From Ardenticatena maritima (lineage in GTDB: Bacteria; Chloroflexota; Anaerolineae; Ardenticatenales; Ardenticatenaceae), in NCBI RefSeq assembly GCF_001306175.1, contig NZ_LGKN01000005.1, positions 124,001-188,000 on the forward strand: a stretch of 64,000 nt of DNA, read 5' to 3'. Made by a program: the position numbers and the translations under genes. This document shows positions 56,699 through 61,064 of this stretch, piece by piece. Each line of letters starts with the position of its first letter. The stretch's first letter is position 1. Below the pieces are notes generated by a model that had not been told where the DNA came from, did no database searches, and saw only the letters and a program-made list of their open reading frames with translations.

Positions 56699-57133
56699 TT
56701 ATGTCAAGGGGGAATCTTCGTCAATCAACTGCTCGCGTGTGCGGTACACCATCGCCAGCAAAGAAGCCACCAACAAGCCTTCCCCATCGCGCACTTCGAT
56801 ATCGTAGGAACAGATACGCCCGCCCTGATGCCGCTCGCGCGCTTCGGCAATCAATCGGTCGCCCGGTCGTGTGGCACGGTGGTAATTGATGCTCAGGTTC
56901 AGCGCCAGATGCACACGGTTGTAGGCGTGCGTCGCCACCGCCAGCGCCACATCCGCCAGGGCGAACACCACCCCGCCATGTGTGACGCCTTGCATGGCTT
57001 GATGATGCGGCTCCAAATCGAGCGCCACACGGGCAAAGCCGGGGCGAACGTCCAGAATCTGCGCCCCCAGGTGGCGCGCAAAGGCGTCGCTTTCCATGCG
57101 GGCGCGCAACGCGGGCGAAATCGTCTCGCTCAT
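56699..57133 (-). CDS. paaI: PaaI-type hotdog acyl-CoA thioesterase
   Basis: A 144-residue hotdog protein. The core THGGVVFALADVALAVA motif holds the usual Asp; LNLSINYHRATRPGDRLIAEA is the next family strand. In phenylacetate degradation PaaI clears stalled aryl-CoA esters. Its ATG overlaps the preceding stop by ATGA. Confidence 0.9.
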   Translation of the reverse strand: MSETISPALRARMESDAFARHLGAQILDVRPGFARVALDLEPHHQAMQGVTHGGVVFALADVALAVATHAYNRVHLALNLSINYHRATRPGDRLIAEARERHQGGRICSYDIEVRDGEGLLVASLLAMVYRTREQLIDEDSPLT

Positions 57134-57885
57134 GCGTCCGCCTCCGCATAGGTGTAGAAGCCGCGCCCGGTGCGCCGCCCCCATTCACCCGCCTGCACCA
57201 TCTGGCGCAATAGCGCCGCCGGACGATAACGGGCGGGGTCGTGGTGGATGCACAAGGCTTCGAGAATGCCCAGCACCTGGTCAAGCCCAATCTGGTCGCC
57301 CCACGCGAGCGGACCATGCGGGTAGTTAGTGCCCAATTGCATGGCGCGGTCAATGTCTTCCGGCGTCGCAACCTGTTCCTGCACCGCAAACGCCGCTTCA
57401 TTGACGAGCGCGGCAACGGTACGCGGCAAAACGCCCCCCGCCGTATCGCCGACGAGCACCATCGTCTTGCCTAGCCGCGCCCACCAGGCGTGCGCCGCCT
57501 CACAGGCAGCATGTGTCGTGCGCCGCCCCGCGTAGCCTTCAACCACCCCACTTGCCAGCGGGGGCAACGCCGCCCACCCAACCGTCCGCTCCGGGCGTCC
57601 ACTCCACATCCCCGCTTCGGTGGCGCTGGCGTTGAGTGTGGCGCTGAGCAAGAGCGTCTCCCCCGTCATTGCACGCCCCAGGTGGCGCAACACGTCGGCT
57701 TTGCGCGCCCGGTCGGCAATCACCGCTTCGACGATGACCAGCGGCTTCGTCGCCGGGTAGGGGGGCATATCGTCGCGCGAAAAGGGCATTTCGTAGCAAA
57801 CATCCACCTCAAAACCAGCCTGGCGCGCCTGCTCGGCTACCGCCACAGCCAGGGGACCATCGCCATACACCCACACATGCTCCAT
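57130..57885 (-). CDS. divergent 3-hydroxyacyl-CoA dehydrogenase-like protein
   Basis: About 251 residues. The C-terminal 3HCDH domain is clear (ALVNEAAFAVQEQVATPEDI, then GRRTGRGFYTY). The N-terminal NAD-binding half is short and altered: VYGDGPLAVAVAEQARQAG replaces the GAGTMG loop. It may bind NAD weakly or serve another substrate. A complete paralogue lies two genes upstream. The ATG at 57885 was chosen because the frame upstream overlaps frnE out of frame. Confidence 0.8.
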   Translation of the reverse strand: MEHVWVYGDGPLAVAVAEQARQAGFEVDVCYEMPFSRDDMPPYPATKPLVIVEAVIADRARKADVLRHLGRAMTGETLLLSATLNASATEAGMWSGRPERTVGWAALPPLASGVVEGYAGRRTTHAACEAAHAWWARLGKTMVLVGDTAGGVLPRTVAALVNEAAFAVQEQVATPEDIDRAMQLGTNYPHGPLAWGDQIGLDQVLGILEALCIHHDPARYRPAALLRQMVQAGEWGRRTGRGFYTYAEADA

Positions 57886-57901: not shown

Positions 57902-58534
57902 TCACTCCTGGGTTTCGCGAGCCAGCAAATGCTGCACCTGTTCAATTGCCATGCGCAACTCTTCCGGTGGGCGCACACCCGAAAGCAGATACCGCCCAGC
58001 AAACAAGAACGCCGGCACGCCGTGAATGCCCGCTTGCGCCGCCCACGCTTCATCCGCCAGCACTTCATCCAGGTAGCGGTGCGTCTCCAACGCTTCACGG
58101 AATGCGTCCGCGTCCAGCCCTACCGAGGCGGCAATCTCGGTCAGCACGTCCACATCGCCAATGTCCCGGTCATCCACAAAATAGGCGTGGAACACAGCGC
58201 GGTCGTATGCTTCGCCCTTGCCATGCGCACGGGCAAACTTGCCGCCTTCGTGCGCCGGGCGCGTGTTGATGCCCCAGCGATGCGTGCGCATTTCAACACC
58301 ATACAGGCGTCCCATCTCAATCGTGCGCGGCCAATGATGCTCAATCATCTGGCGGTAGCGGGCTTCCTGTTCCGGCGTCATGCCGCTTTTTCCTTCGGGG
58401 CGCAACTCAAACGCCCGCCATTCGACGGTCAACGGAACGTCCTCTCTTACGCGGTCCAAACTGGACACAGCCATATAGCAAAACGGTCAAACGTAGTCGC
58501 TGAACACGACCACATGCAAAGGCTTGGTGCTCAT
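57902..58534 (-). CDS. FrnE/DsbA-family oxidoreductase, probable selenoprotein (in-frame TGA = Sec16)
   Basis: The 211-codon frame starts at ATG 58534 with a perfect GAGGAGG site and an ATGA overlap with the upstream gene. It begins MSTKPLHVVVFSDYV, then TGA (58489-58487), then PFCYMAVSSL. FrnE-type DsbA relatives have DYVCP(W/F)CY here, so TGA replaces the first Cys of the redox motif: U-P-F-C. A SECIS-like hairpin follows 21 nt on. The rest is a normal DsbA/FrnE fold: ELRPEGKSGMTPE, a helical insert, and the cis-Pro loop GIHGVPAFLFAGRYLLSG. Read without Sec it would be a truncated gene from 58474, lacking the whole redox strand. It is in the middle of a phenylacetate-type operon. Confidence 0.85.
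58452..58469 (-). promoter_or_regulatory. bacterial SECIS-like element after the in-frame TGA
   Basis: In the mRNA, GUCCA and UGGAC form a 5-bp stem around loop GUU (58466-58454). A bulged U and then G-C and U-G pairs extend the base. The loop begins 26 nt after the UGA and its first base is G. This meets the known bacterial SECIS rules (loop 16-37 nt after UGA, G in the first two loop positions). Confidence 0.65.
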
Positions 58535-59400
58535 GCGTCCTCCTCGTAGTCATACCACCCACGCCCGGTTTTGCGCCCCAGGCGGCCACTTTCGACCATG
58601 CGTTGTTGCAGCAGGCTGGGGCGATAGCGCGGCTCGCCAAAATAGGCGTTGTAGACCGACTGCGACGCCGCGAAATTGATATCCAGCCCAATCAAGTCCA
58701 TCAGTTCAAACGGTCCCATCTTGAAACCGCCCCCTTCGCGAATGAGGCGGTCAATGGTGGCATGGTCGGCGACGCCGGTTTCGAGCAAACGCAACCCTTC
58801 CAGGTAGAAGGGGCGTGCAACGCGGTTGACGATGAACCCCGGCACGTCCTTGGCGTGAACCGGCGTTTTGCCCATGCGCTCCGCCAGTGCCGCCAGCGTC
58901 TCGCACACATGCGGCGCGGTCTGCGCGCCGGCGACAATCTCCACCAGGCGCATGAGCGGCGCGGGGTTGAAGAAGTGCATGCCCGCCACGCGGTGCGGTG
59001 TTTGCGTCGCCGCGGCAATCTGCGTGACGCTGAGGGTGCTGGTGTTGGTCGCCAATATCGCGTCAGGCGCAACAATGCTTTCCAAATCGGCGAACAGGCG
59101 TTGCTTCAAGTCGAGCCGCTCCGGCGCGGCTTCGATGACGACCTGGCAATCGGCGAAAGCGTGCAAGTCGGTTGTGGGGTGCAGGCGTTCGGGCACGGTG
59201 CGCGCCAATTCAGGGTCGAGCCGCCCTTTTTGTGCGGCGCGGTTCACAAAATGCAGAATTCGCTCCACCGCACGTTGGAGCACGTCGTCGGCGATGTCGT
59301 AGAGCCGCACGGTGTAGCCCGCCTGCGCCGCCACCTGTGCGATGCCGCTGCCCATGGTGCCGGCGCCGATGACGCCAATGGTGGTGATACTTTCGAGCAT
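58531..59400 (-). CDS. 3-hydroxyacyl-CoA dehydrogenase (Hbd/PaaH type)
   Basis: A 289-residue NAD enzyme oxidising 3-hydroxyacyl-CoA. NAD loop GVIGAGTMGSGIAQVAAQAG at the N-terminus, active-site His in GMHFFNPAPLM, Glu in VEIVAG, and GFIVNRVARPFYLEGL before the C-terminal domain. In this operon it most likely works on the phenylacetate-derived 3-hydroxyadipyl-CoA. The stop overlaps the selenoprotein start. Confidence 0.93.
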   Translation of the reverse strand: MLESITTIGVIGAGTMGSGIAQVAAQAGYTVRLYDIADDVLQRAVERILHFVNRAAQKGRLDPELARTVPERLHPTTDLHAFADCQVVIEAAPERLDLKQRLFADLESIVAPDAILATNTSTLSVTQIAAATQTPHRVAGMHFFNPAPLMRLVEIVAGAQTAPHVCETLAALAERMGKTPVHAKDVPGFIVNRVARPFYLEGLRLLETGVADHATIDRLIREGGGFKMGPFELMDLIGLDINFAASQSVYNAYFGEPRYRPSLLQQRMVESGRLGRKTGRGWYDYEEDA

Positions 59401-59462: not shown

Positions 59463-60257
59463 TCAACGTCCCTGGAAGGTTGGTGCACGTTTTTCCAGAA
59501 AGGCTTGCAACCCTTCGGCGTGGTCGGCGGTGCGCCCCGCCAGTTCCTGCATGTCGGCTTCGTATTCCAGCGTTTCCGCCAGCGTGTGCGTTGCGGCAAA
59601 GTCCGCCAGCCGCTTGATGTAGCCAATCGCTTTGGTCGGCGCCGCCGCCAGTTCCGCCGCGAGGGCGCGCGCTTCGTCCATGAGGCTGTCGGCGGGCACC
59701 ACACGGTTGAGGATGCCGTAGTCCAGCGCTTCCTGGGCGCTGATGCGTGTACCGCGCAACATGAGTTCCATGGCGCGGGTCGGACCGACCAACCGCTGCA
59801 AGAACCAGGTGGAGCCGCTATCGGGCACCAGCCCAATTTTGATGAAGGCTTGCAAGAAGGAAGCCGTATCGGCGGCAAGGCGCAAGTCGCACGCCAGCGC
59901 CAGGCTCATGCCGGCGCCAGCCGCCACGCCGTTGACGGCGGCGATAATCGGCTTGGGGAGTTCGCGCATTTGCAAGATGAGCGGGTTGTAGGTGTGGCGC
60001 AGGTGTTCGCCATACGAAAAGCCGCCCGCCGACGGGTCCCGCTCCTTGACGCTCGCCAAATCCTGCCCGGCGCAAAAACCGCGCCCCGCGCCCGTGAGGA
60101 TGACGGCGCGCACGCTCTCATCACGCTTTGCCTGCTTGAAGGCGTCGCGCAGTTCGTGCAGCATGGTATCGGTGACGGCGTTCAGTTTGTCAGGGCGGTT
60201 GAGCGTGATTGTCAACACACCGCCATCCTGTTCGTACAAAATTGTTTCGTAAGCCAT
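59463..60257 (-). CDS. paaG: enoyl-CoA isomerase/hydratase, PaaG-like
   Basis: A 264-residue crotonase. ILTGAGRGFCAGQDL gives the first oxyanion strand, and NGVAAGAGMSLALACDLRLA the second. The phrases YNPLILQMRELPKPIIAAV and FIKIGLVPDSGSTWFLQRLVG are typical of PaaG, the ring 1,2-epoxyphenylacetyl-CoA isomerase (oxepin-CoA forming). ATG at 60257. Confidence 0.88.
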   Translation of the reverse strand: MAYETILYEQDGGVLTITLNRPDKLNAVTDTMLHELRDAFKQAKRDESVRAVILTGAGRGFCAGQDLASVKERDPSAGGFSYGEHLRHTYNPLILQMRELPKPIIAAVNGVAAGAGMSLALACDLRLAADTASFLQAFIKIGLVPDSGSTWFLQRLVGPTRAMELMLRGTRISAQEALDYGILNRVVPADSLMDEARALAAELAAAPTKAIGYIKRLADFAATHTLAETLEYEADMQELAGRTADHAEGLQAFLEKRAPTFQGR

Positions 60258-60290: not shown

Positions 60291-61064
60291 TTAGCGCCCT
60301 TTCCATTCGGGTTTGCGTTTTTCCAGGAAAGCCGCCACGCCCTCGTCCTTGTCTTCGGATGCAAAGAGCAGGTAGAAGTTGTGGCGTTCGTATTCGAGCC
60401 CTTCCGCCAGGCTCATTTCGTAGGATTTGAGGATCGCTTCCTTCGCCAGTTGAAGCGCCAGCGGCGGCTTTTGCGCAATCTGGCGGGCGAGTTCGAGCGC
60501 TTTTTCAAGGTAGAGTTCGGTCGGCACCACATGGTTGACCAAGCCCCACTGCAAGGCTTCTTGCGCGGTCAAGCGGCGGTCGGCAAGGATGACTTCCATG
60601 GCAATCGCCTTCCCCACGGCGCGGGGCAAGCGCTGCGTGCCGCCTGCGCCCGGCATAATGCCCAGGTTGATTTCGGGCTGCCCAAAGACGGCGCTTTCGC
60701 TCGCCACAATCATGTCGCACATCATCGCCAGTTCGTTGCCGCCCCCCAAGCACCAGCCGCTCACGGCGGCAATCAGCGGTTTGGGGAAGGTGCGCACGGC
60801 TTCCCATTCCTTGAAGCGGTAGGATTTGAGCATGTCCACCGGGTTTTTGCCCTGGAATTCGCCAATGTCAGCGCCGGCGGCAAAGGCGCGTTCGTCGCCC
60901 GTCAAGACCACCACCACAATCTCATCATCCTGGGCGAATTCGTTGAGCGCCTGCGCCAGTTCGCTCATCAACGCGCGGTTGAGCGCGTTCAGGCGCTTGG
61001 GGCGGTTGAGCCGAATCAAGCCGATTTTGGGTTCCGGGCGTTCGACGATGATGTTTTCGTACAT
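60291..61064 (-). CDS. paaF: enoyl-CoA hydratase, PaaF-like
   Basis: A 257-residue crotonase. The oxyanion-hole loops are ALTGDERAFAAGADI-like (VVLTGDERAFAAGADIGEF) and VSGWCLGGGNELAMMCD. The two catalytic glutamates are expected in GQPEINLGIMPGAGG and adjacent positions. It would hydrate 2,3-dehydroadipyl-CoA in the phenylacetate pathway. AAGGAGG precedes the ATG, 2 bp after the EthD-like gene. Confidence 0.88.
   Translation of the reverse strand: MYENIIVERPEPKIGLIRLNRPKRLNALNRALMSELAQALNEFAQDDEIVVVVLTGDERAFAAGADIGEFQGKNPVDMLKSYRFKEWEAVRTFPKPLIAAVSGWCLGGGNELAMMCDMIVASESAVFGQPEINLGIMPGAGGTQRLPRAVGKAIAMEVILADRRLTAQEALQWGLVNHVVPTELYLEKALELARQIAQKPPLALQLAKEAILKSYEMSLAEGLEYERHNFYLLFASEDKDEGVAAFLEKRKPEWKGR

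Follow-up and report, generated by a model that had tools for sequence, protein, structure and literature searches.

The closest described relatives of the gene considered here are selenocysteine (Sec)-containing DsbA-like proteins, among them members of COG2761, which we take to be the FrnE-type group. DsbA-like members of COG2761 with Sec in a UxxC motif were first reported in 2005, from the Sargasso Sea selenoproteome (PMC1088965), and the proteins named 'DsbA 1-3' were obtained from GOS data, where 'DsbA 1' corresponds to pfam01323 and also carries UxxC (PMC2398784). A survey of sequenced bacteria counted 41 organisms with DsbA-like proteins, the tenth-highest organism count (PMC5029168), and an inventory published in 2026 distinguishes a DsbA-like form 1 (UxxC) and a form 2 (DxxUP) (PMC13188914). 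Form 2 is annotated as 'crotonase/enoyl-CoA hydratase family protein' (PMC13188914, citing PMC5029168). The original prediction for this locus appealed to Sec in thioredoxin-fold CxxC motifs as an established pattern of bacterial selenoproteins; the UxxC DsbA-like proteins of COG2761 are a known selenoprotein family (PMC1088965; PMC2398784; PMC13188914).

The window analysed here, i.e., a 64,000-nucleotide stretch of the Ardenticatena maritima genome, contains an intact gene (57902..58534, (-)) that, with a probability of about 0.96, encodes a thiol-disulfide oxidoreductase of DsbA fold and FrnE subfamily, whose attacking residue is Sec (U16-P-F-C19) inserted at a UGA codon decoded by the bacterial route. 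This protein shares with the COG2761, DsbA 1, and form 1 proteins (PMC1088965, PMC2398784, PMC13188914) a DsbA/FrnE domain, U as the first residue of UxxC, and a SECIS element just downstream, whereas those proteins come from marine metagenomes and the window gene belongs to Ardenticatena and its class. The likeness to the published representative, NIP15863.1, is judged from its description. The window protein also resembles form 2 by description, since it reads D13-Y-V-U16-P17 and has crotonase genes as neighbours, although it is separate from the crotonases and not fused to them. FrnE of Deinococcus radiodurans (DR_0659; PDB 5cnw, 5co3, 5xwh; PMC8945050) has the same CP(W/F)C-type active site, but with Cys where the window protein has a Sec codon, and possesses an extra C-terminal CxxxxC pair, thought to regenerate the active site (PMC8945050), that the window protein lacks. 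Among the NCBIfam models, none matched the window protein at its cut-off. The thioredoxin-like (seleno)lipoprotein family Rcas_1661 (NF041057), likewise of thioredoxin fold, matches over the C-terminal part; membership in this family was rejected, since the score is 38 bits and the cut-off 190, and no lipoprotein signal is visible in the window protein.

The frame starts at an ATG at 58534, which forms a four-base overlap (ATGA) with the stop codon TGA of the upstream gene and is preceded by a Shine-Dalgarno sequence, GAGGAGG, read directly from the DNA (58539..58545, (-)); the next gene downstream starts at 57885. Both the good ribosome site and the operon-like borders of the original prediction are present. 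On the (-) strand, the frame runs through MSTKPLHVVVFSDYV, an internal TGA (58487..58489, (-)), PFCYMAVSSLDR, and the final stop TGA (57904-57902), giving 210 residues including U16. The internal TGA is the candidate Sec codon, U16 of U-P-F-C, both from the reading of the frame and from the TGA in homologues; the residues that follow it begin PFCYMAVSS, and the peptide around U16 is HVVVFSDYV-U-PFCYMAVSSLDR. When the window was scanned without bias for coding frames bridged by a TGA, ten candidates emerged, and only this gene has a recognisable redox motif at its TGA. The standard ORF list holds for the locus just 57902-58474 (190 aa), in which the initial 20 residues are missing, as expected by the original prediction, which had gene callers starting at 58474. 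This ORF is open, and a shorter protein made from the internal ATG at 58474 (MAVSSLDR...), the upstream part being a leader, has to be weighed. Such a product is highly improbable, since, judged by the AlphaFold model, strand E6-12, U-P-F-C, and the opening turn of the active-site helix would all be missing from it, confirming the anticipated loss of the catalytic strand; moreover, conservation across the class extends to the residues ahead of the TGA (VFSDxVU), and the good Shine-Dalgarno sequence sits at the upstream start instead.

The assignment of the protein to the FrnE type, proposed from the sequence at the outset, was corroborated at several levels. Residues 8-197 match Pfam DSBA (E 7.8e-32, with U read as C), the nearest solved structure by sequence is FrnE of D. 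radiodurans (E 7.6e-25), and the AlphaFold model of the protein (pLDDT 95.6) has FrnE 5co3 as its best fold match in the PDB (E 1.4e-15, TM 0.83, 31% identity). The active site UPFC corresponds to the FrnE-type CP(W/F)C with a Sec codon in place of the first Cys. The original prediction had placed the TGA on the resolving redox Cys of CPFC; the position is correct, but the term 'resolving' is not, since DsbA/FrnE enzymes attack with the first Cys of CxxC. The resolving residue of U-P-F-C is Cys19 (58478..58480, (-)), which is an invariant column of the alignment and the only Cys codon of the gene. Pro174 of the Gly-Val-Pro loop (58013..58015, (-)), where V173 and P174 are invariant in the alignment, is expected to be the cis-Pro of the thioredoxin fold, with its cis geometry assumed from the family. 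There is no Cys beyond C19 in the translated gene and, hence, no C-terminal CxxxxC. This motif is present in many FrnE members, though not in all, and does not strictly define them; since the FrnE proteins of D. maricopensis and S. roseofulvus are likewise devoid of it (PMC8945050), its absence is not decisive for FrnE membership. The window protein shows no signal sequence, consistent with the cytoplasmic location of the FrnE subfamily (PMC8945050), and the protein is probably soluble and cytoplasmic.

Homologues at E<=1e-20 occur in 80 of the 396 genomes sampled from the host class, and about 65 of these 80 genomes, counted from the homologue table, have the TGA form. These figures come from whole-genome searches, which replaced a pattern scan of contigs with Cys codons at U16 that was biased against Sec forms. 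In all 37 distinct TGA forms checked base by base, the TGA coincides with the U of U-P-[FWY]-C, and an alignment of FrnE homologues, which had been suggested as a check, places Cys (codon TGC or TGT) opposite the TGA in the Cys homologues. In one more TGA-bearing match (L038 of G036), the active-site codon is TGC and the TGA lies at another place. The sister species (Ardenticatena MAG, WFOS01000027) retains the TGA in a gene whose product is 87% identical, and the codons after the TGA give a dN of 0.065 and a dS of 1.43 between both species, i.e., a dN/dS of about 0.05. It could be thought that a nonsense mutation or a miscall turned TGC or TGT into TGA, leaving a pseudogene or a sequencing error, as the TGA is one base from either codon and the standard ORF begins downstream of it. 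However, the sister species and dozens of genera share the TGA at this codon, dN/dS remains low past it, a covarying SECIS element follows, and the genome has the full Sec machinery (these last two are described below). On such comparative grounds, pseudogene, sequencing error, and chance can be regarded as ruled out for practical purposes, in line with the earlier judgement that decay was unlikely, which the kept TGA and the low dN/dS support. The claim of a selenoprotein itself was upheld, as dozens of species conserve the TGA at this one codon and a covarying SECIS element follows it.

Other DsbA-type genes of the class (L048, L050, and L052) also have a TGA opening UP[FY]C, e.g., EFGDFQUPFCGR and EYSDFQUPYCGR, and probably represent further selenoproteins. 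In addition, a more distant DsbA-fold gene (L041, L042) has a TGA in UVWC, with a strong hairpin of the GCCTC-GGC-GAGGC type about 20 nt downstream.

The putative SECIS element of the window gene has an upper stem-loop GUCCA-GUU-UGGAC with five pairs and the loop GUU (58454..58466, (-)), whose apical loop lies 24-25 nt past the UGA, and its lower pairs reach 58451-58471. Alternatively, the hairpin can be read as GUCC-AGUUU-GGAC, with 4 bp and at 24 nt after the UGA, a distance that becomes 25 nt when the A-U pair is closed. The hairpin fits the loop, stem, and distance of the published bacterial SECIS model (PMC13188914); its local energy of -7.2 kcal/mol falls just short of the published limit of -7.5 kcal/mol, and the corresponding hairpin in the sister species has -11.9 to -12.7 kcal/mol. 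The folding energy of the whole region around the hairpin is not unusual (z -0.22). Thirty sequences aligned in one register have 97.3% of their cells paired, and four of the five pairs show changes on both sides. The covariation amounts to 0.412 versus 0.145 in shuffles (0/500), and sliding the partners gives no more than 0.126, where the shuffle counts are not probabilities because the homologues are related and not independent. Since the hairpin lies within coding sequence, a control with synonymous codons drawn from each gene's own usage was run: five pairs and a G[U/G] loop are found in 31 of the 37 sequences, with about 0.4 expected under this recoding. A comparable hairpin follows just 10 of the 1946 TGA triplets of the window, and the hairpin was not found in the Cys homologues.

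Two further features of the hairpin were observed across the class. In family f29 of Sec-FrnE (L034, L035, and L037), a different hairpin, GGCC-AGGGTGT-GGTC, is located 19-20 nt after the UGA, which suggests that the SECIS element was re-made in this lineage. Moreover, the residues S-S-L-[ED] past U-P-x-C are common in the SECIS-bearing L023-L033 and L063-L087 and unseen in the Cys forms L031, L036, L057, and L058; the RNA element seems to dictate the amino acids at these positions.

Inspection of the genome for selA, selB, selC, and selD, as recommended in the original prediction, revealed all four. The tRNA-Sec gene selC scores 70.2 bits, above its curated cut-off, and is called by ARAGORN as tRNA-SeC with anticodon tca, and the matches of selB (355 bits, curated cut-off 242), selA (561 bits, curated cut-off 268), and selD (367 bits, curated cut-off 125) exceed their cut-offs. 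The SelD gene of the genome has a TGA of its own (MADIRLTQLVACAGUASKV; L018, G000:C5:535771-536703), presumably at the active-site Cys/Sec position of the SelD family, and is an internal positive control for Sec decoding in this genome. The organism, judged by its gene content, should be able to insert selenocysteine. Across the class, selA is present in 318 of the 396 genomes and in 55 of the 63 TGA-form genomes tested (Fisher p 0.17), and since around 80% of the class has selA, its presence does not discriminate and its co-occurrence with the Sec form is uninformative by itself. Readthrough of the UGA with a standard amino acid, where a near-cognate tRNA would bring Trp or Cys, or a genome-wide reassignment of UGA has a negligible likelihood, for although UGA readthrough is generally known to occur in bacteria, the Sec gene itself and its neighbour end in TGA, tRNA-Sec, selA, selB, and selD are present, a conserved hairpin lies at SECIS distance, and the homologues have Cys, not Trp, opposite the TGA.

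By the standard bacterial route, SelA and SelD would make Sec-tRNA(Sec), SelB would bind the hairpin that closely follows the UGA, and the ribosome would read this codon as Sec. By analogy with the family, the U16 selenolate would most likely attack a substrate at its disulfides, or at other oxidised sulfur, with C19 resolving the intermediate via a U16-C19 selenenylsulfide. Since the protein has neither a C-terminal CxxxxC nor any Cys other than C19, it would have to be re-reduced by an external reductant, e.g., thioredoxin or a thiol of low molecular weight. The case for Sec decoding is built on comparative sequence evidence, and we infer the direction of the reaction, the reductant, and the substrate.

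In Ardenticatena, the Sec gene belongs to an operon of the phenylacetate/beta-oxidation type, where it is located between two genes matching the halves of a PaaH-like dehydrogenase. The upstream gene (58531..59400, (-)) is a 3-hydroxyacyl-CoA dehydrogenase that matches the N-terminal half of PaaH (PaaH 1-288), and the downstream gene (57130..57885, (-); start taken at ATG 57885) is of the 3HCDH family and matches its C-terminal half (385-494), with a degenerate NAD-binding part. The same operon includes genes for a PaaI/PaaD-like hotdog thioesterase (56699..57184, (-)), identified by profile/sequence match, and for PaaG-like (59463..60257, (-)) and PaaF-like (60291..61064, (-)) enoyl-CoA hydratases/isomerases, both identified by sequence match. 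This layout is common to the sister species only, and no recurrent partner gene was found among the clusters of flanking ORFs in other genera. Because the flanks differ in those genera, the operon says little about the general role of the family. A tentative and rather doubtful scenario would combine a class-wide Sec-FrnE subfamily, with a protein shaped by its SECIS element (the hairpin having left Ser-Ser-Leu-[Glu/Asp] as its footprint in the codons), and the recruitment of one Ardenticatena copy into the operon between the split PaaH halves; there, this copy may maintain CoA-thiol chemistry or an enzyme of the operon in the reduced state.

This gene appears to be a well-supported, probably mis-annotated addition to the Sec DsbA-like proteins already described, and it leaves the general picture of selenoproteins unchanged. 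Standard annotation drops the catalytic residue together with the first 20 residues of the enzyme and, since this loss coincides with the lack of an NCBIfam model above its cut-off, the copies of the gene across the host class are probably mis-called as well. The alignment obtained here provides a clean example of a covarying bacterial SECIS element in a redox enzyme, and could support a model for the correct annotation of these proteins.
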